Shown in pieces: positions 14,628 to 23,182 of a DNA stretch of 36,137 nucleotides (within the stretch, counting starts at the first letter, position 1; each line of letters begins with the position of its first letter). A program made the translations under genes and the position numbers. The DNA comes from Pseudomonadota bacterium. GTDB lineage: Bacteria; Oederibacteriota; Muellerivitia; Muellerivitales; Muellerivitaceae. The DNA is taken from assembly GCA_021324075.1 (NCBI GenBank), contig JAJPJW010000028.1, positions 1 to 36,137 on the forward strand. Reading direction: 5' to 3'. Below the pieces are notes generated by a model, which saw nothing but the letters and a program-made list of their open reading frames with translations, was not told the DNA's origin and ran no database searches.

Positions 14628-15236
14628 TCAGCTTCCGGCGGGTTTGAGATAGACGCTGATGTATTCGTCATAACAGACGCCCCGGAAACAATGGGCCCCC
14701 GGCTCCTGGGGCCGGCCCGTGAGGACGAAGCCGCAGCGGGTGAGGGGCAAACCCTCCAAGGGCGGGGCCGAGGGGTCGGGCTCCGTTCCCACCCTCAACT
14801 GGAAAACCCCGTCCTCCGGTCCTCCCGGGGTCCGGGGGGGCGCCGCCACGCAGGCGATGGGGGGATCGATAAAAAGGTTCCCGAAGAAGTCACCCTCGTA
14901 AATGGAAAAGCCCCGCGTTTCCTCGGACGAAACCTCCAGGAAGGCAAAACCGCTCCCGGGGCGGCGCAGCGAAATGGGTACCTTGACCCCGAAAAAATTG
15001 GTGCGGGCCAGGATACCCGCGGAAACCCAGCGTTGCTCGGTTTCGGTGAGCGGCCTTTCGAGCCACCCGGGCGCCAGGCCCATGCCGCCGGGGAACTCCA
15101 GCCTTTGGCCGTCCACCACCAGGTAAACGCCCTCGTCCTCGGGAAGGGCGCAATTGACCAGGTATTCGAGGAACTTGCGTCCCCCGGCCTGCTCCGCCTG
15201 CTTCGCCGCGTCCGGCGTTATTTCCCGATACCGCAA
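14628..15236 (-). CDS. conserved-looking hypothetical protein downstream of the pentapeptide-repeat gene
   Basis: About 202 residues from TTG 15236, which has AAGGA 7 bases upstream. The frame is open further, but through the terminator of the gene before it. Visible stretches are FLEYLVNCALPEDEGVYLVVDGQR, then LTETEQRWVSAGILARTNFFG, YEGDFFGNLFIDPP, and three Cys near the end (CGF, CFRGVC) before YISVYLKP. It looks globular and has no membrane segment or clear signal peptide in this reading. I do not recognise a named family. It lies on the same strand as the pentapeptide-repeat gene but after its terminator, so any functional link is only positional. Confidence 0.6.
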   Translation of the reverse strand: MRYREITPDAAKQAEQAGGRKFLEYLVNCALPEDEGVYLVVDGQRLEFPGGMGLAPGWLERPLTETEQRWVSAGILARTNFFGVKVPISLRRPGSGFAFLEVSSEETRGFSIYEGDFFGNLFIDPPIACVAAPPRTPGGPEDGVFQLRVGTEPDPSAPPLEGLPLTRCGFVLTGRPQEPGAHCFRGVCYDEYISVYLKPAGS

Positions 15237-15274
15237 TGGCCATTCCTTAACAAAGGGGATGGGTGCCCCATAAT

Positions 15275-15308
15275 AAAAAACGGACCGGCAAGAACGTCTG
15301 CCGGTCCG
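15275..15308 (-). terminator. rho-independent terminator after the pentapeptide-repeat gene
   Basis: On the minus strand CGGACCGGCA and TGCCGGTCCG form a perfect 10-bp stem with an 8-base loop, followed by six T residues. It starts 22 bases after the stop codon of the small gene. Confidence 0.93.
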
Positions 15309-15329: not shown

Positions 15330-15506
15330 TTACTTCACCAGCTTTTGGGCTCCGAGGTCCTTCAACCAGGCGAGGTTGGACATCTCCACGCCATTGAGCT
15401 TGACGCCGTTCAACTTGACGCCATTGAGCTTTACACCGTTGACCTTAACGCCGTTCAATTTGACGCCGTTCAATTTAACGCCATTCGAACTAATTCCTGT
15501 AGGCAT
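15330..15506 (-). CDS. 58-residue pentapeptide-repeat peptide, (NGVKL)7
   Basis: ATG 15506 is preceded by AGGAGG at 4 bases spacing, and the frame ends at TAA 15332-15330. The peptide has a short head (MPTGISS), seven tandem five-residue units (NGVKL, NGVKL, NGVKV, NGVKL, NGVKL, NGVKL, NGVEM) and a tail, SNLAWLKDLGAQKLVK. The period and the Leu spacing recall pentapeptide-repeat right-handed beta-helices, but the usual A(D/N)LxX consensus is absent and only seven units are present. That is less than two turns of a four-unit coil. Codon use varies between units (AAA/AAG, TTG/CTC, AAT/AAC), which argues for selection on the protein rather than recent DNA slippage. It has its own terminator and probably its own promoter. 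Function is unknown. Confidence 0.8.
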   Translation of the reverse strand: MPTGISSNGVKLNGVKLNGVKVNGVKLNGVKLNGVKLNGVEMSNLAWLKDLGAQKLVK

Positions 15507-15745
15507 AAATCCTCCTTTCCTTTCTCATTCAATGCCCGAAAGAGCGAACAGGCACGGTGGAATTGTAACAGGGGTCGATTTGTTTCACAGGCCCTAAAGG
15601 TGTACCCCAGGCGGTTTTTACAATAAATTTCCCAGGCCGGAGCCCCCCAGAGGCGGTTTATGCCCGCCGGCGTCAGTTCCTGGCAGAGGAACCCGGTGAT
15701 GGCGTTGAAGCGGGGACGGTAGGCATCGGGCGGCACCAGGGCCAA
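15470..15745 (-). other. open frame of unknown status between the PUR-domain gene and the pentapeptide gene
   Basis: The frame is open from just after the PUR-domain gene stop (same frame, 33 bases before TTG 15745) to 15470. It contains a protein-like stretch, YRPRFNAITGFLCQELTP, then WGAPAWEIYCKNRLGYTF. After about residue 50 it runs over the candidate promoter and ribosome-binding site of the next gene, where the sequence looks non-coding. It may be a gene remnant or a short gene whose end is frameshifted. I recognise no family. Confidence 0.3.
15562..15590 (-). promoter_or_regulatory. candidate promoter of the pentapeptide-repeat gene
   Basis: On the minus strand CTGTGA and TACAAT are 17 bases apart, with the same -10 hexamer as the tRNA-Ser promoter. 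The -35 box is weak (three matches). The leader would be about 50 bases. Confidence 0.35.
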
Positions 15746-16048: not shown

Positions 16049-16185
16049 GGCTTCCCCCTTAGATAAGGGCTGCATCATAGCACCGTGCCCTGGAACGTGC
16101 CGTTGAACCCGCCCCGAGTCGATTGTTTTTTGGTCCGCCTTCCCCTAGAGTTATTCGCACTTCCCGACGAAAAAGGAGCCGCACC

Positions 16186-17106
16186 ATGAGATACCACTGG
16201 GGAGGACTTCTCCTCCTGATCCTGCCGGCCCTGGGACTGCTGAATACGGGCTGCCCCAGCAAAAGCTCCACTTCCTCTCCCTCGGGCCCCTCCGGACCAC
16301 CCTCTTATAGTTATGGGGTTTCTTTCGGGAACTCCGCGGCTACGACCATGAACGTGCCCAACGGCCTGGCCGTTTCGGGCAGCAACCTCTGGGTGGCCAA
16401 CGAAAACATCTTCGGCTACATCCAGGAATGGACCACCGCGGGAAGCGAAACCCTCTCCTCCACAACCTATAATTCCCACGCCTACAATTTTCCCCGGGAC
16501 GCGGCGGCCGGGCCGGACGGTTATATCTACATTGCGGATGGCAGCCACCTTGTGGTGGAACTCACCTCCACGGGGGGTTATGTGACGGTCTTTGGAACTA
16601 CCGAATTGGGCTCCGACGATCTGGACGGGGTGGCGGTGGGAAACACCGAGGCCTACCTGTTGGACGACACCGTGCCCCAGGTGGTGGCCTATACTATCGG
16701 CGGGTCGGGTGCCAGCAAGACCTTCACCAGCCCCGTCAGCTTCGGGACCGCCTCGCTCGGGGCCTTCCCCCGCGGAATTGGGCTGGATGGCTCAAGCAAT
16801 GTCTATGTCGCCGATTATTCCAACGACCGCATCGTGAAATTCAACAGCGCGGGCGTTAGCCAAACCGTTGTCACCCTGGTTTCCAGCGGCGTGCCCACGG
16901 GCGCTGCGGTGGACGGGGCCGGTTATCTTTACGTTTCCGATAACCACAATCACGAGGTCCAGATGTTCGATTCCATGGGCGGGACGGTGACCCAATTCGG
17001 TGCTGCGGACCTTGCGGCCGCCGACGGCATCGCGATAGACTCCTCGGGTAACCTCTACGTGTCGGACGGCGTGAATAACCGGGTCGTGAAGTTCAATCGG
17101 AATTAA
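16186..17106 (+). CDS. NHL-repeat beta-propeller lipoprotein
   Basis: The 306-residue product has a lipoprotein signal, GGLLLLILPALGLLNTGCPS, with lipobox NTGC. After a Ser-rich linker come NHL-type blades: NVPNGLAVSGSNLWVAN, FPRDAAAGPDGYIYIADG, FPRGIGLDGSSNVYVADYS, VPTGAAVDGAGYLYVSDN and AADGIAIDSSGNLYVSDG, the last closing with NNRVVKFNRN. About six blades would make one propeller on the cell surface or in the periplasm, with an unknown ligand. ATG 16186 has AAAGGAG 8 bases upstream. The final 190 bases are duplicated at 17764-17953. Confidence 0.88.
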   Translation: MRYHWGGLLLLILPALGLLNTGCPSKSSTSSPSGPSGPPSYSYGVSFGNSAATTMNVPNGLAVSGSNLWVANENIFGYIQEWTTAGSETLSSTTYNSHAYNFPRDAAAGPDGYIYIADGSHLVVELTSTGGYVTVFGTTELGSDDLDGVAVGNTEAYLLDDTVPQVVAYTIGGSGASKTFTSPVSFGTASLGAFPRGIGLDGSSNVYVADYSNDRIVKFNSAGVSQTVVTLVSSGVPTGAAVDGAGYLYVSDNHNHEVQMFDSMGGTVTQFGAADLAAADGIAIDSSGNLYVSDGVNNRVVKFNRN

Positions 17107-17117
17107 GGCACTTGCAT

Positions 17118-17729
17118 ATGAAAAAAAGCCTCCTCACCTTCGCGCTTCTATTCACACCTTTTCTTTTACAGTTCGCCTGCGGGCCCAAGGCCCCAACCAC
17201 CCCGGCCCCTTCCGACACCCCCACTTCCACGCCCACAAACCTGAACGGTTATACTTCCACCCCCAGCTATACCCCGACCTATACCCTAACCCCCACCGCG
17301 ACCAATATGGCGGGCTATACCTCGACGCCTTCCTCCCCGACGGCGACCTACACGTTTACGCTTTCCTACACCCCCACCAAAACATTTACGTCCACCTACA
17401 CCCCCACTTCCACCCCGACGACGACCCCGACCGCCACCCCCACCGCCACACCCGTGCCTCCGTCGATCTTTCCCATCCCCCCCCAGACCGCTTCCGACAG
17501 CGGCTCTCCCGTCCACATCACCTTGGGCGCCGCGGACATTTACGGCAATGCCGTCGTCTTCACCATGTACTCCCTGCCGACCCACGGAATCGCGAGCATC
17601 ACGGGGAACACCCTTACCTATACGCCCCCTGGCAGCTATACGGGGGTGGACACTCTTTCCTTCAAAGCCACCGACGGGGTCACGGGCGCCTTCTCGACCG
17701 AGGCCGTCACCATCACCGACACCCCTTAG
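17118..17729 (+). CDS. lipoprotein with Thr-Pro linker and Ig-like domain
   Basis: The 203-residue protein has a lipoprotein signal (SLLTFALLFTPFLLQFACG) and a long low-complexity linker of TPT/STPT units (about residues 28-115). A single Ig/cadherin-like domain follows (PPQTASDSGSPVHITLGAAD, then GNTLTYTPPGSYTGVDTLSF and FKATDGVTG). Such domains usually repeat many times in adhesins; here translation stops after one, just before a fragment of the neighbouring NHL gene. So the gene may be truncated by rearrangement. It begins 11 bases after the NHL lipoprotein gene and probably shares its transcript. Confidence 0.78.
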   Translation: MKKSLLTFALLFTPFLLQFACGPKAPTTPAPSDTPTSTPTNLNGYTSTPSYTPTYTLTPTATNMAGYTSTPSSPTATYTFTLSYTPTKTFTSTYTPTSTPTTTPTATPTATPVPPSIFPIPPQTASDSGSPVHITLGAADIYGNAVVFTMYSLPTHGIASITGNTLTYTPPGSYTGVDTLSFKATDGVTGAFSTEAVTITDTP

Positions 17730-17758: not shown

Positions 17759-17953
17759 ATGGGGCCCGGGTACCTTTACGCGGCGGACAACCACAACCAC
17801 GAAGTCCAGATGTTCGATTCCATGGGCGCGACGGTGACCCAATTTGGCGCGGCGGACCTTGCGGCCGCCGACGACATCGCCCTGGACTCCTCGAATAACC
17901 TCTACGTGTCAGACGGCGTGAATAACCGGGTTGTGAAGTTCAACCGTAACTAG
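17759..17953 (+). pseudogene. duplicated 3' end of the NHL lipoprotein gene
   Basis: From about 17764 to the stop at 17953 the sequence is nearly identical to 16917-17106, including EVQMFDSMG, TQFGAADLAAAD and NNRVVKFNRN. It lacks a signal peptide, the first blades and a ribosome-binding site. Differences such as GCGATAG/GCCCTGG show it has begun to diverge. It is a remnant of a tandem NHL-protein copy, most of which has been lost or replaced. Confidence 0.85.
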
Positions 17954-18029: not shown

Positions 18030-19100
18030 TTACAAATTTTCTATCGTTATTTTTTTATTAAAGACTTCGCGTAAAAGAACGCTAAGTCTGAATTTAATTG
18101 CATAAGCGTCATTGGGTGATTGTGCATAACGGTCAAATTCAATCAAATCATAATTTGCGCCGCCAATATCCGTTTCTGCTTTTTGTCTATTCTCCTCACG
18201 CACCATTTCGAAGTCGCCCAGTTTTTTTCTAGTAATGGCTGAGCCCCATCCTTCGTTACGGGCAATTCGAAACAAGTGGTAATAGAGAGTGACAATGCCC
18301 ACTTGGCGAAGGAGCGGATCTTTGTGAGTAAAGACCTTTGACATCAGGCGCACATTTTCTTGAGCAGTTTCTAGGAAACTTGGCATCTTGGTCCGGGGCT
18401 TGCTTGCGTGATCCTTAACGAACTTATCAAGATAAGCTTTTTTTGTATCCACTACCTTATTCTCGGATTCGGCTAATAAAAATTTTGTAGATAGATCGTA
18501 ATGACGATAGCGTTTGTTAGGGAAAGGGAGCCGATTCTTAAAGAAATCGTCTGAAGCCAGAGTTCGAATAGCAGCGGGTAAAGGGCCGCCAAAGGCATTT
18601 CGCTTTTCGGGGGCCGATAGAGGAGCGGATTCATTTAACCGCGAAAACATCTCTTCAATCATTTCGAGCTCGTCGGTTTCGATACAAACAATATTTAGTG
18701 GGAACCCGTCAAATTGAACCTTGAGATCAGGATATGACGTTCCTAGTTCGGAATACTTCATATTGCCGGCTTCGATTGAAGAATTCCTGAAATATTCAAA
18801 ATCCTCATCTAAGGCAATACTTCCATCGATAAAAGCCCATAGCGTTTCTAAACGCTGTTTCCCGTCAATGATTGCGTAATCATAGGATTTCCCGTTTTTT
18901 TTCAAGGGATTGTTGAACTTGTGAAAATAAATTTTAGGTATATCAAAATCATTAAGAATCGAATCTATAAGCAATTGACGTTTGTCGAATGGCCAAATAT
19001 CGCTCAGCCTCTGGTAATCGGGCCTAAGTTGGATGCGATCACGCATCCTATAGATGTTCCAAATGGTCGCGTTATGAAAGGTAGAGATTTCAAATTTCAT
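18030..19100 (-). CDS. DUF262 (GmrS-like) protein, partner of an FRG-domain gene
   Basis: The 356-residue protein carries a DUF262/ParB-like nucleotide-hydrolase fold. LRPDYQRLSDIWPFDKRQLLIDSIL and FDIPKIYF are followed by the catalytic-type motif IIDGKQRLETL (about 77-87), and later by the FSRLNES motif. In GmrSD enzymes DUF262 binds and hydrolyses nucleotides to gate a DUF1524 HNH nuclease. No DUF1524 domain (HxxP/N...H) is seen here or in the neighbours, so an effector must lie elsewhere or in the helical C-terminal half. ATG 19100 overlaps the FRG gene by 11 bases. Base composition is markedly AT-richer than the rest of the window, which indicates transfer. An antiviral role is an inference from the location beside a restriction system. 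Confidence 0.85.
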   Translation of the reverse strand: MKFEISTFHNATIWNIYRMRDRIQLRPDYQRLSDIWPFDKRQLLIDSILNDFDIPKIYFHKFNNPLKKNGKSYDYAIIDGKQRLETLWAFIDGSIALDEDFEYFRNSSIEAGNMKYSELGTSYPDLKVQFDGFPLNIVCIETDELEMIEEMFSRLNESAPLSAPEKRNAFGGPLPAAIRTLASDDFFKNRLPFPNKRYRHYDLSTKFLLAESENKVVDTKKAYLDKFVKDHASKPRTKMPSFLETAQENVRLMSKVFTHKDPLLRQVGIVTLYYHLFRIARNEGWGSAITRKKLGDFEMVREENRQKAETDIGGANYDLIEFDRYAQSPNDAYAIKFRLSVLLREVFNKKITIENL

Positions 19101-19842
19101 CTAGAAGCTCCCTGGTCAAATCCGCTACTTTGTCAAGTTCTGGGAACAAGGTTAATGTCGTGAACCCCAAATGCTTCAACTCTTTAATAATTCCCTTTTT
19201 GGCCCCGCTGGGAATAACCCATCTCCAAACGTGTTTTCTGTCGGCAATTTTCTCGATAGGGGTGTGTACCGTTTGATTTATTGTGAAAGTGCCCTGCTGG
19301 GCGGCCATGCGTGGGGTATTTCTTGGTCCAATTATAGCAACGGGTAATAACTTAGAAGGATTTTGTTGGGTCCTGCTGGGGAGGTAACTATCCAACACTT
19401 GGTCTTTACCGAAGCTGGGAATTTCTTCGCCAAAATCGAATTTAATGTTAGCCGCTTTGTTCAAGGCTATTGGATCGAGACACCAAACCGCGCCGTCGGT
19501 TCTTAAACGGCCGGGAGAATGAACGGCGAAATAGAGAGCCACCAAAGGGCTTTCGCTCCAATCGAGGAGGCGGGTTTGAGCCCGGTGATGTTGCATTAGA
19601 AAAAGCCACTCCCATTCTTCCATTCGTTGACCCTGCAGGTGCGGGGTCGCATTTTGCATAAATCGCTTTATAAGGGCGCTCTCGGCGACAAGGAATTTTC
19701 TTTCGCGGGCCAAACTTGGGACAAGTTTCCAGTCTTTTTTAGAGTGGCCTCGAAACCATATTGGCCCATTGCGATCAATCTGCGTTTTTAGAGCAGTGAT
19801 CATTTCTGCGACGGATCTAATTTTTCTGTCAGGGTGTCTCAT
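19090..19842 (-). CDS. FRG-domain protein
   Basis: The 250-residue protein has the FRG signature near the N-terminus (PIWFRGHS, F30-R31-G32) and its second conserved block, QHHRAQTRLLDWSESPLVALYFA (about 85-107, written here in part). A third region, GTFTINQTVHTPIE, also fits the family. FRG domains are of uncertain biochemistry and occur repeatedly in phage-defence neighbourhoods and toxins. Translation of the next gene (DUF262) is coupled by an 11-base overlap, so the two probably work together. No strong ribosome-binding site precedes ATG 19842. The gene is AT-rich compared with the flanks. Confidence 0.85.
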   Translation of the reverse strand: MRHPDRKIRSVAEMITALKTQIDRNGPIWFRGHSKKDWKLVPSLARERKFLVAESALIKRFMQNATPHLQGQRMEEWEWLFLMQHHRAQTRLLDWSESPLVALYFAVHSPGRLRTDGAVWCLDPIALNKAANIKFDFGEEIPSFGKDQVLDSYLPSRTQQNPSKLLPVAIIGPRNTPRMAAQQGTFTINQTVHTPIEKIADRKHVWRWVIPSGAKKGIIKELKHLGFTTLTLFPELDKVADLTRELLDEI

Positions 19843-19957
19843 TTAGGAAATTTTACATCCTTTACAATACTATGTTTATAAATTGTGCCCTTTTAATTTA
19901 ACCATAAGCATTCCCTTCGAGCTTGCGCCCTAAGGGTAAAGCGATACTTGCCGAAAT

Positions 19958-20758
19958 CTAAAGCCGTCGAAACGGTGGCCGTCGCGGAGGCCTCATAAGT
20001 TTTCTAAACAGCTGTGGATCAAGCTGTCTTAATGCATTAATGTTTAAAGTCGCTCTTTGAATGGGAGGTTGAGGCAGGGGCTGACGCGTTTGAATGGGTT
20101 GTGGCGGCCTAGAGGCCGCTTCCACAAAATGCTCACGTGCCATTGCCACAATCACGGCATTTCCTTCTCTGCGGCCCGGAAGGAGTTGCCAAAGCGGATT
20201 TCGTATTGCGTCAGGTGCATTAGTCACTACCGTACCTAGAAAGTCAAAAAACACAGGTACCGGACAATTGAGCCATAGGGCAGGAAAAGATTCTTCAGGA
20301 TTGGGTGAAAGATAGTAGCCCTGTGTAGTTGTACGTTTGAAGTTCTTCAGTCCATTTTGAAAACGAGGGTAATCTTTTTTTAGACGAATGCCATCGACAA
20401 CCCAAACGATCTTCTTATGGAAATTCTCGCGCACTTCACGTTCTTTTGGTTCAAGATGTGAATGTTGAAACTCAAGTACAAGGCCGTGTGGGGTGCGGAT
20501 ATCTGCGATGTGCTTCTCGCCTGATTCGTCGTGCTGGACATACTCTCGCCAATCGGAAGGAAACCTATTTTTCCAATCTCGGTGCCACTGGGTCTCATTT
20601 TCTTTCCAGGAATCGCAATTCTTGAGGCCTTCGTGAGCCCAATGGTGAATCCTTCGCGTCCCGCACTTAGCAATAACGGTTGTGTGGCAAATAGGGCATA
20701 AGGCCTTTGCCTTTGGCGAAGGTTCAATCCGCTGATCATTTTTAAGGGCATATTGCAT
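19958..20758 (-). CDS. CoiA-like nuclease-domain protein
   Basis: The 266-residue protein resembles competence protein CoiA. The N-terminus has a zinc-ribbon-like CPICHTTVIAKCG followed by RRIHHWAHEG. The nuclease region shows WHRDWKNRFP, KHIADIRTPHG and VLEFQHSHL, which gives a PD-(D/E)xK layout with Asp in ADIR and Glu/Gln in LEFQ. The C-terminus is Pro/Gln- and Arg-rich. It starts 12 bases after vsr and is on the same strand, so it is part of the restriction operon rather than of a competence locus. It may assist restriction or process cleaved DNA; that is inference. Confidence 0.78.
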   Translation of the reverse strand: MQYALKNDQRIEPSPKAKALCPICHTTVIAKCGTRRIHHWAHEGLKNCDSWKENETQWHRDWKNRFPSDWREYVQHDESGEKHIADIRTPHGLVLEFQHSHLEPKEREVRENFHKKIVWVVDGIRLKKDYPRFQNGLKNFKRTTTQGYYLSPNPEESFPALWLNCPVPVFFDFLGTVVTNAPDAIRNPLWQLLPGRREGNAVIVAMAREHFVEAASRPPQPIQTRQPLPQPPIQRATLNINALRQLDPQLFRKLMRPPRRPPFRRL

Positions 20759-20770
20759 ACGTTGTTCTCA

Positions 20771-21232
20771 CTAGTTTGATAAAGAGGCTTTGATCGTTTT
20801 TATTAACTCGTAAGATTTGTTTCGAACATCATGTTCCCAAAACCTAAGAACTGTCCAACCAGTTCTTCTTAGGTAAGTTTGAGTTCTTTTGTCCCGGCGA
20901 CGGTTTCCCTCGATTTTGTCCTTCCAGAATTTATTTTTCATTTGGTGTTTCCACCGGGGAAATTGCCAGCCGTGCCAGAAATCCCCATCCAGGAAGACGC
21001 AAACTTTTTCTTTCTCGAAAACAATGTCGGGGGTTCCGCGGATGGCTTTGACGTGGGTTTTGAATTTGCGGGACGTGGATTTTTTGAGGAGGCGAAGGAA
21101 GGATTTCTCTAAGCCGGTATTCTTGGACCTGATCTTCGACATCAGACTGGAGCGTTGTTGCTTGGAGAGCTTATCCTTTCGCCTCCGCTTTTTATAATTC
21201 CTGCCGACATAGTTTTTGATACTTGATGACAA
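20771..21232 (-). CDS. vsr: Vsr (very short patch repair) endonuclease
   Basis: This 153-residue protein nicks beside T:G mismatches that arise by deamination of 5-methylcytosine. Motifs are MSKIRSKNTGLEKSFLRLL, HVKAIRGTPDIVFEKEKV (catalytic Asp in PDIVF), FLDGDFWHGWQFPRWK, NRRRDKRTQTYLRRTGW and VLRFWEHDV. The zinc-site Cys residues of E. coli Vsr are not seen. TTG 21232 is the likely start. It sits 12 bases after the restriction enzyme gene, where a C5-methyltransferase makes Vsr useful. A long basic N-terminal extension precedes the core. Confidence 0.92.
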   Translation of the reverse strand: MSSSIKNYVGRNYKKRRRKDKLSKQQRSSLMSKIRSKNTGLEKSFLRLLKKSTSRKFKTHVKAIRGTPDIVFEKEKVCVFLDGDFWHGWQFPRWKHQMKNKFWKDKIEGNRRRDKRTQTYLRRTGWTVLRFWEHDVRNKSYELIKTIKASLSN

Positions 21233-21244
21233 ATGTGTTCACCT

Positions 21245-21859
21245 TCATTCCTTGCCCTTCAGGAAGAAATCCTCGATGTCCTTGAGGATTTGTTTTTCTG
21301 ATTTCGCGCTTGGTTGGCATTTGGCCGCCCAAGCCCTGCCGGGATGTACGGTGTCCCAATTCGGGCGCTTGCCCTCATATCGGCCTTTTCCCGGGTCATG
21401 ATTCCCGAAGCCCTCGACTACCGCGTTCCAAAGAGGATTGAACTTGGTGATAAGTAGGGTTTCCCCCAGGGGGATCCAAATATCGTCCACAACGAGGTAA
21501 CGACAAGTGAAATCTTTAATATCCAGGTTCTTAACAAGCTCGATGCTCTCGGCGTGTTCGCTGAGGCGGGTGTAAAGAACGCTCCCCGCGCTTTCCTCTA
21601 GATCACGGGCACCCTTGCGGCCACCTGAGGGGATAGCCTTTCCAACATAGATTGGTTGTTTGGGGTCCTTTCTTTTATTCTTTGCGGCTATTGGTCTATA
21701 GGCAGGGAAGTCACCGGAATAATAAATGACGTAAATCCCTGCACCCTCAAAGCTCTTATCGATGGGCATGGCTTGGGCCGGGCGTTCTAATAACGCCTTT
21801 TCAACGCTCTCGCCCAGGTTCTTTTTATCGAGAGGGTTATAGATCTTCTCGTCGCTCAA
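21245..21859 (-). CDS. Eco29kI-family type II restriction endonuclease (GIY-YIG)
   Basis: The 204-residue protein follows the Eco29kI family from end to end. GIYVIYYSGDFPAY (GIY motif, Tyr43) and PIYVGKAIPSGGRKG (YIG-like, Tyr71) come first. Arg98 and His102 are in LYTRLSEHAESI, Glu133 in IPLGETLLI, and Asn153 in GFGNHDPGKGRY. These correspond to the catalytic set of R.Eco29kI. That enzyme cuts CCGCGG, so the same or a related site is expected but not proven. TTG 21859 overlaps the methyltransferase stop as TTGA, with AGGA 7 bases upstream, so synthesis is coupled to and follows the methyltransferase. Confidence 0.93.
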   Translation of the reverse strand: MSDEKIYNPLDKKNLGESVEKALLERPAQAMPIDKSFEGAGIYVIYYSGDFPAYRPIAAKNKRKDPKQPIYVGKAIPSGGRKGARDLEESAGSVLYTRLSEHAESIELVKNLDIKDFTCRYLVVDDIWIPLGETLLITKFNPLWNAVVEGFGNHDPGKGRYEGKRPNWDTVHPGRAWAAKCQPSAKSEKQILKDIEDFFLKGKE

Positions 21860-23052
21860 GCGGTTTTCCTGATTGGGACAACCTTTTTGCCAAGGCTATC
21901 CAGTTTCTCCTTAACGCTTTTCGCCACCACGTAACCCAAGGTAACAGGAACGGCGTTCCCCAATTGGCGCATGGATTCGGTCCAAGAGCCCTTGAATTGG
22001 TAATTGTCGGGAAAGGCCTGGAGGCGGGCGGCCTCGCGGACCGTAAAGTAACGCATACGGCCATTCGGGTGGGCGAGGGTGTTCTCGCCGCCTGGAACCC
22101 CATGATCGCCGGCCTTGAGGGTCTTCGCCGGCTCATCAAGGGGGCTTCCTGTATGGCCGGGGTATTTCTTGGCAGAATTGGTGGGGTAGTGGTTGAGGAT
22201 CTTCCCATCCTCGGAGGGCTCGGGAAGGTCCGAAATCGCATCCCGAACAGTTCGCCAAGGTTTTTGGGGCGGCTTAAAAAGGGTGGCTTCCATCCTGGCC
22301 ACGGTGGCTTTGAGGCCCCGGGGAACGTTCGGACGGTCGGCTTTCGGGATTTTATGATTCTTCCAATACTCGCCCGACACCCACTTGGAATAGATCAAGG
22401 CCTCTTGGGAATGGGTCGGCTTGGGGAAGGACCATTCTAGGCCTAGGTTGCTACGGAACCCGACCACGAAAACCCGGTCCCGCTTTTGGGGGACCCCATA
22501 ATCGGCGGCGTTCAAGACCTGGAAAACCACGTTGTAATGGAGGCCGCTACACTTGCCGCGCGTGTGGTATTCCTCAAGGCGGGCGTGGTGTTCCTGCCAT
22601 TTCTCATCATTCCTTTTTAAGACCTCGGGATAGGTGAGCTGGAGGACGATATAACCGAAGTAGTTACCGAAGGAGGGCCGGAGGAGGCCCCGGACATTCT
22701 CAAAGATGAAGGCGCGGGGAGCGGCTTGGAGTACGGCCCTAACGGCCTCGGGGAACATATCCCGGCTATCGGTCGGTCCATTGTGTTTCCCGCCCAGGGA
22801 GAAGGGTTGGCAAGGGGGGCCACCGGCCACTAAGTCGAGCTTGCCCCGGTAGCGGGCGAAGTCCACGCCACGGACATCTTTTTGGGAGACTTCCGGCCAT
22901 TTCGCCACGGGCTTAACGCCCCGCTTCTGGTTCTCGCGGACGGTATCGCAAGCATCTTGGTTCCATTCAACGATTAGTTCATGGGAAAAACCAGCCTTGG
23001 AAACTCCCATTCCTAGACCGCCTGCACCCGCGAAAAGCTCTAAGGCCCTCAT
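21856..23052 (-). CDS. DNA (cytosine-5) methyltransferase
   Basis: The 398-residue enzyme transfers methyl from S-adenosylmethionine to C5 of cytosine and should protect the host from the adjacent nuclease. Motif I is FAGAGGLGMG (7-16), motif IV is GGPPCQPFS with catalytic Cys81, motif VI is ENVRGL (118-123), motif VIII is QKRDRVFVVG, and motifs IX-X are REAARLQAFPDNY and MRQLGNAVPV. The variable region between VIII and IX would set specificity. ATG 23052 has GGGGGGA upstream; an in-frame ATG at 23100 lacks homology. It heads the unidirectional run M-R-vsr-CoiA-like. Confidence 0.95.
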   Translation of the reverse strand: MRALELFAGAGGLGMGVSKAGFSHELIVEWNQDACDTVRENQKRGVKPVAKWPEVSQKDVRGVDFARYRGKLDLVAGGPPCQPFSLGGKHNGPTDSRDMFPEAVRAVLQAAPRAFIFENVRGLLRPSFGNYFGYIVLQLTYPEVLKRNDEKWQEHHARLEEYHTRGKCSGLHYNVVFQVLNAADYGVPQKRDRVFVVGFRSNLGLEWSFPKPTHSQEALIYSKWVSGEYWKNHKIPKADRPNVPRGLKATVARMEATLFKPPQKPWRTVRDAISDLPEPSEDGKILNHYPTNSAKKYPGHTGSPLDEPAKTLKAGDHGVPGGENTLAHPNGRMRYFTVREAARLQAFPDNYQFKGSWTESMRQLGNAVPVTLGYVVAKSVKEKLDSLGKKVVPIRKTA

Positions 23053-23182
23053 GCGTCCCCCCGAAAAATCAATGGTATTCGCCCAAACATTTAGGCGCAT
23101 TTTACTTTAAAAACTAAATTCCAGCCATAAAAAGAATACACTCGTATACCAAAAGAAATTGGTTAAAAACCAAAGAAGTTCA

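Follow-up and report, generated by a model that had tools for sequence, protein, structure and literature searches.

The small gene described here, gene A, probably encodes one part of a protein made in two pieces: a pentapeptide-repeat module separated from its partner, which is the product of the downstream gene, gene B. Both genes lie in the window, by which we mean the whole 36,137-nucleotide stretch of DNA that was analysed. The occurrence of fused and split versions of one pair of proteins is classical evidence that the two act together, and it is because this pair exists in both forms elsewhere that we propose that A and B act as one two-part system. The sequence-only reading had found no obvious partner enzyme for the micro-gene; that view is overturned by the fused and split relatives, which point to the adjacent, same-strand gene B as the partner. 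A micro-gene that looked like an orphan would thus supply one half of a protein family that is widespread, multi-copy and without annotation. The features of the locus are as follows.

15562 to 15570, minus strand: possible extended -10 of gene A, TGTTACAAT, weak, from sequence inspection
15511 to 15517, minus strand: Shine-Dalgarno of gene A, AAGGAGG, 4 nt 5' of the ATG
15330 to 15506, minus strand: gene A, a 58-residue pentapeptide-repeat microprotein, from ATG at 15506 to TAA at 15330
15381 to 15485, minus strand: repeat tract of seven NGVKL-like units (residues 8-42), as 15-bp units in the gene A frame
15281 to 15308, minus strand: intrinsic terminator between A and B, an 11-bp stem followed by TTTTTTATTA
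15234 to 15248, minus strand: proposed start of gene B, with AAGGA as Shine-Dalgarno (15248-15244), 7 nt, and an inferred TTG start codon (15236-15234), from sequence
14628 to 15236, minus strand: gene B, about 202 residues, putative partner of A in an unannotated domain family, from profile and sequence comparison (GC3 0.80)

The micro-gene and the constraint on its repeat

The product of gene A is MPTGISSNGVKLNGVKLNGVKVNGVKLNGVKLNGVKLNGVEMSNLAWLKDLGAQKLVK, in which five of the seven repeat units read NGVKL exactly, one reads NGVKV and one NGVEM, with the flanking segments ISSNG and LAWLK keeping the register in degenerate form. An NGVKL micro-gene had been called at these coordinates with no strand given; the call is borne out, and the strand is minus. 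The very strong Shine-Dalgarno and the terminator described in the same reading were also upheld, the latter as a stem at 15308-15281 with TTTTTT after it, and a folding calculation agrees with the predicted hairpin. The promoter, described as plausible, stood only in part: an extended -10 is possible, but no good -35 was seen in the sequence and a promoter scan found no minus-strand site. The encoded protein carries a net charge of +7 (pI 10.3), contains no cysteine and few serine or threonine residues, and shows no signal peptide, lipobox or hydrophobic stretch ahead of the repeats. An amphipathic helix in its tail was considered and dropped, as the hydrophobic moment did not exceed that of shuffled sequences.

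Gene A is a real gene under selection at the protein level. Pairwise changes among its units fall at codon positions 1, 2 and 3 in the numbers 23, 0 and 57, and the 66 codon differences comprise 49 synonymous and 17 non-synonymous ones. Among 100,000 neutral simulations, in which the number of substitutions per unit was held equal, none kept the protein as well as observed, and the probability of seeing no position-2 change was 0.0003. The other five frames of the tract, the antisense TPFNL frame included, all performed far worse than the coding frame, and similarity at a period of five residues extended to 26 of 30 residues in the protein, as opposed to 9-10 in Markov controls. The earlier suggestion that selection keeps the protein repeat is therefore confirmed by the dominance of synonymous differences and by the simulations. 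GC3 is 0.72 in gene A, similar treatment of gene B gives the value listed above, and the spacer of about 90 nt between them has a GC3 of 0.48 and is on that account taken to be non-coding.

Gene A matches the Pfam family Pentapeptide (PF00805), to which MfpA, Qnr and Np275/Np276 belong, at 22.1 bits against a cut-off of 20.2, its units fitting the pentapeptide register as V-K-L-N-G, and a six-frame search of its genome returned gene A alone for this family (21.5 bits). The best PDB matches were designed pentapeptide solenoids and Qnr. Seven units correspond to about 1.75 coils. The superfamily is defined by at least eight repeats (PMC8145042), so that gene A stands one unit short, and the shortest of the examples considered from that review is Np276, with 75 residues. 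The remark that the protein is too short for a normal pentapeptide-repeat helix thus holds in that its units span fewer than two coils, yet the Pfam cut-off is passed. Gyrase-protecting members such as Qnr and MfpA are DNA mimics with an acidic surface and dimerise head to head through C-terminal helices, whereas gene A is strongly basic, and for this reason gyrase protection by gene A is unlikely. AlphaFold predicted no strands and had low confidence both from the single sequence (pLDDT 71.6, pTM 0.27) and with a four-row alignment (pLDDT 55.8, pTM 0.19), and a Foldseek search gave no match.

None of the 44 other genomes of the phylum, among them two of the same genus and five of the same family, yielded a homologue of gene A that shares its architecture; the single weak match, in G007, lies within an ordinary pentapeptide protein of 220 residues. 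Searches of plasmids and phages with gene A gave no match, the tail used alone as a query recovered no relative, and the DNA of the locus was not found in the family genomes. In three of these the surroundings of the upstream 100-residue gene were compared, and no NG-repeat ORF lies nearby. A conserved tail, which had been put forward as a check on the micro-gene, was not observed to a significant degree: its likeness to the tail of the Pseudosulfitobacter split relative described below is at chance level (P=0.14), as it is for the second split relative (P=0.42). The case for gene A rests on selection on the repeat and on the evidence for a partner. The tail tryptophan recalls the F-x-x-W-F motif found after the repeats of fused relatives, a likeness that is only suggestive.

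A further 23 matches to gene A in IMG/VR were rejected as homologues, because they are readings of the strand opposite long phage ORFs. The phage proteins themselves, on the minus strand of these contigs (L014-L036), have fibronectin-III-like domains ahead of pentapeptide repeats of the form TPF(S/G)F, with further sequence beyond the repeats in L035. The antisense of such repeats reads NPNGVKLNGV and can mislead repeat searches. Literature searches on NGVKL, on NGLST with Myxococcus and on the ADYC domain returned nothing useful.

Gene B and its fused and split relatives

Gene B has no match in Pfam, NCBIfam or the PDB, no homologue in the family genomes and none in phages or IMG/VR, and the open frame preceding it contains no hydrophobic N-terminus. 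When the search was widened, four copies turned up in a genome of 9 Mb (G072) and one on each of two plasmids, from Sulfitobacter mediterraneus and Pseudosulfitobacter pseudonitzschiae. B aligned at 35.7% over 97% of its length with NZ_CP069006 (E 6e-24) and at 37% over 88% with NZ_CP022420 (E 2e-23), a further alignment in the plasmid comparison giving 37% over 181 residues. A family profile returned window B at E 6.8e-89, a value to be read with the fact that window B is one of the profile's own sequences. With a profile of B built from five sequences, the domain was located in 78 of 195 genomes of the phylum of G072, a phylum of large genomes that is probably Myxococcota, with as many as 16 copies in a single genome. 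By sequence comparison, B truly belongs to a family without annotation, and the domain so defined is absent from Pfam, NCBIfam and the PDB.

The relatives of B link it to NG repeats in two arrangements. On both plasmids B is directly preceded, on the same strand, by a gene of 62-91 codons whose product has NG-x-x-x repeats behind a signal-like N-terminus that is hydrophobic; this gene lies within 10 nt of B or overlaps it, the overlap being 4 nt in one case (WP_203212383/WP_203212384 on Sulfitobacter mediterraneus P2 and WP_089423449/WP_157729109 on Pseudosulfitobacter pSMR1-5). The order is that of the window; however, the plasmid pairs carry signal-like N-termini on both proteins, their repeats are fewer and irregular, and the two genes are tightly coupled with no terminator between them, whereas a terminator separates A from B. 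In G072, by contrast with these split pairs, (NGLST)n repeats are fused ahead of B in one lipoprotein-like ORF. Across the phylum, 52 of 65 B loci had at least three NG dipeptides in a five-residue register within the B ORF, just ahead of the B domain, compared with 1 of 739 control ORFs; same-genus loci among the 65 are not independent, and the pattern recurs across several families and with many unit sequences (NGLST, NGLSL, NGMTL, NGINT, NGLMP, NGLLS). The association of NG-pentapeptide tracts with B is far stronger than chance would give.

In this unnamed fused family the same B domain directly follows the NG-x-x-x pentapeptides. The family differs from the window pair in being a single polypeptide that is exported and Cys-rich, with repeats that are mostly NGLST (Pfam GLTT) as opposed to NGVKL. 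A lipobox-like site is present in 46 of 54 fused proteins and a hydrophobic stretch before the repeats in 50 of the 54. Two alignment columns of the B family are near-invariant cysteines (column 89, 98%; column 191, 96%), and both are glycine in window B. The window locus therefore shares with the two-part family an NG dipeptide every five residues next to a homologous B, and lacks the export signal and the cysteine pair. Very long NG tracts, of up to 42 consecutive in-register units, are fused to B-like domains at L093 (in G147), L097, L105 and L110.

The repeats most similar to those of gene A come from an independent, parallel case in another species, with a different pairing. Contig L004 encodes an NGVKL-repeat protein (Pentapeptide, 28.2 bits) whose NGVxL units are 53% identical to those of A, and the next gene, within 3 nt, encodes an ADYC-domain protein (PF20032, E 3.9e-48). 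The repeats are again split from their partner gene, but the L004 protein has a signal peptide and its partner domain is ADYC in place of B. Judging from this case, several different domains may serve as partners of NG-pentapeptide modules. The repeat module can be fused or split, exported or apparently cytoplasmic, and joined to B or to ADYC. The secreted NGVKL-repeat protein of L004 occupies positions 111-467 and the ADYC-domain protein 470-1312.

A model for the A-B pair and its alternatives

The comparison of the window pair with its relatives enabled us to propose a model for how A and B may work. In this model, A would form a short, basic, right-handed beta-helix of about 1.75 coils and, because such a helix is too small to stand alone, would stack on itself, dock with B to act as its stalk or scaffold, or both. 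The terminator between the genes may serve to keep A in excess over B. Unlike its exported relatives, the pair is predicted to be cytoplasmic, since signal peptides are absent and the two near-invariant cysteines of B have been lost; if the two are joined by a disulfide in relatives that are exported, their joint loss would fit a cytoplasmic protein. It is also conceivable, although rather unlikely, that the pair is a cytoplasmic two-component assembly in which excess copies of the 58-residue A polymerise into a basic beta-solenoid rod that arrays or displays B, the surface lipoproteins of large-genome bacteria being built on the same plan with the two parts covalently joined. The pair offers a direct test of the minimal working length of a pentapeptide-repeat unit.

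Several observations count against the two-part reading. The tail of A matches those of the split relatives no better than chance, its predicted fold is of low confidence, a terminator stands between the genes, and no A homologue appears in the genus, family or phylum searched. Moreover, NG-pentapeptides evolve easily, and the repeats of A could have come to be paired with B by convergence and not by descent. The most serious alternative is that A is a self-standing minimal pentapeptide protein whose copies polymerise through their ends into a basic fibre that binds nucleic acid or membranes, with B a mere neighbour. Its own terminator and strong Shine-Dalgarno would suit such a gene, as would its high charge and pI and a helix with open ends after less than two coils. 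However, NG repeats adjoin B or sit inside B proteins in three arrangements and stand beside ADYC in a fourth, and A was never found alone in relatives, which leaves a free-standing fibre unlikely.

That A and B are the remains of a decayed fusion gene, an ancestral A-B protein split by a stop codon and now degenerating, is quite improbable. The two genes do share a reading frame with a single TAA between them, B has no ATG and has lost its conserved cysteines, and no signal peptide remains. A shared frame nevertheless has a one in three chance of arising anyway, the spacer combines non-coding GC3 with a clean terminator while A and B keep coding GC3, A is under purifying selection, and split pairs also occur in two Alphaproteobacteria. 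It is possible that a fused A-B ancestor was split, but the non-coding spacer and the selection on A argue against fresh decay.

The order of promoter, short ORF, terminator and gene B on one strand would also be expected if B were under the control of a transcription attenuator with A as its leader peptide. We regard this as very improbable, as the 58 codons contain no run of a single regulatory codon, the amino acids are kept while synonymous codons vary, no significant alternative fold was found (z -1.8 and -1.4), and on the plasmids the small genes, with their signal-like N-termini, abut or overlap B and leave no room for an attenuator. Of the roles floated earlier for A, namely self-assembling peptide, scaffold or precursor, a scaffold is the best guess, and a modified (RiPP) precursor is scarcely credible despite the head, repeats and tail of the short gene, given that no maturase, peptidase, exporter or transporter was recognised among the window proteins scanned, that A has no cysteine and few serines or threonines to modify, and that relatives carry the repeats fused inside lipoproteins.

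Other features of the window

A lower-GC defence island occupies 18030-23100 on the minus strand and encodes an Eco29kI-type restriction enzyme, a C5 methyltransferase and a Vsr endonuclease, together with a GmrSD-like protein, an FRG-domain protein matching the PADLOC candidate PDC-S15 and a CoiA-like protein. On the plus strand, a short ORF (17759-17953) some 650 bp beyond an NHL-repeat protein (16123-17106) duplicates the C-terminal 60 or so residues of that protein, and a lipoprotein-like ORF at 17112-17729 combines a long TPTxTPT tract with a Big_9 domain. Finally, a 109-bp tandem duplication of 1.8 copies, with a GC-rich hairpin inside it, lies at 726-924.
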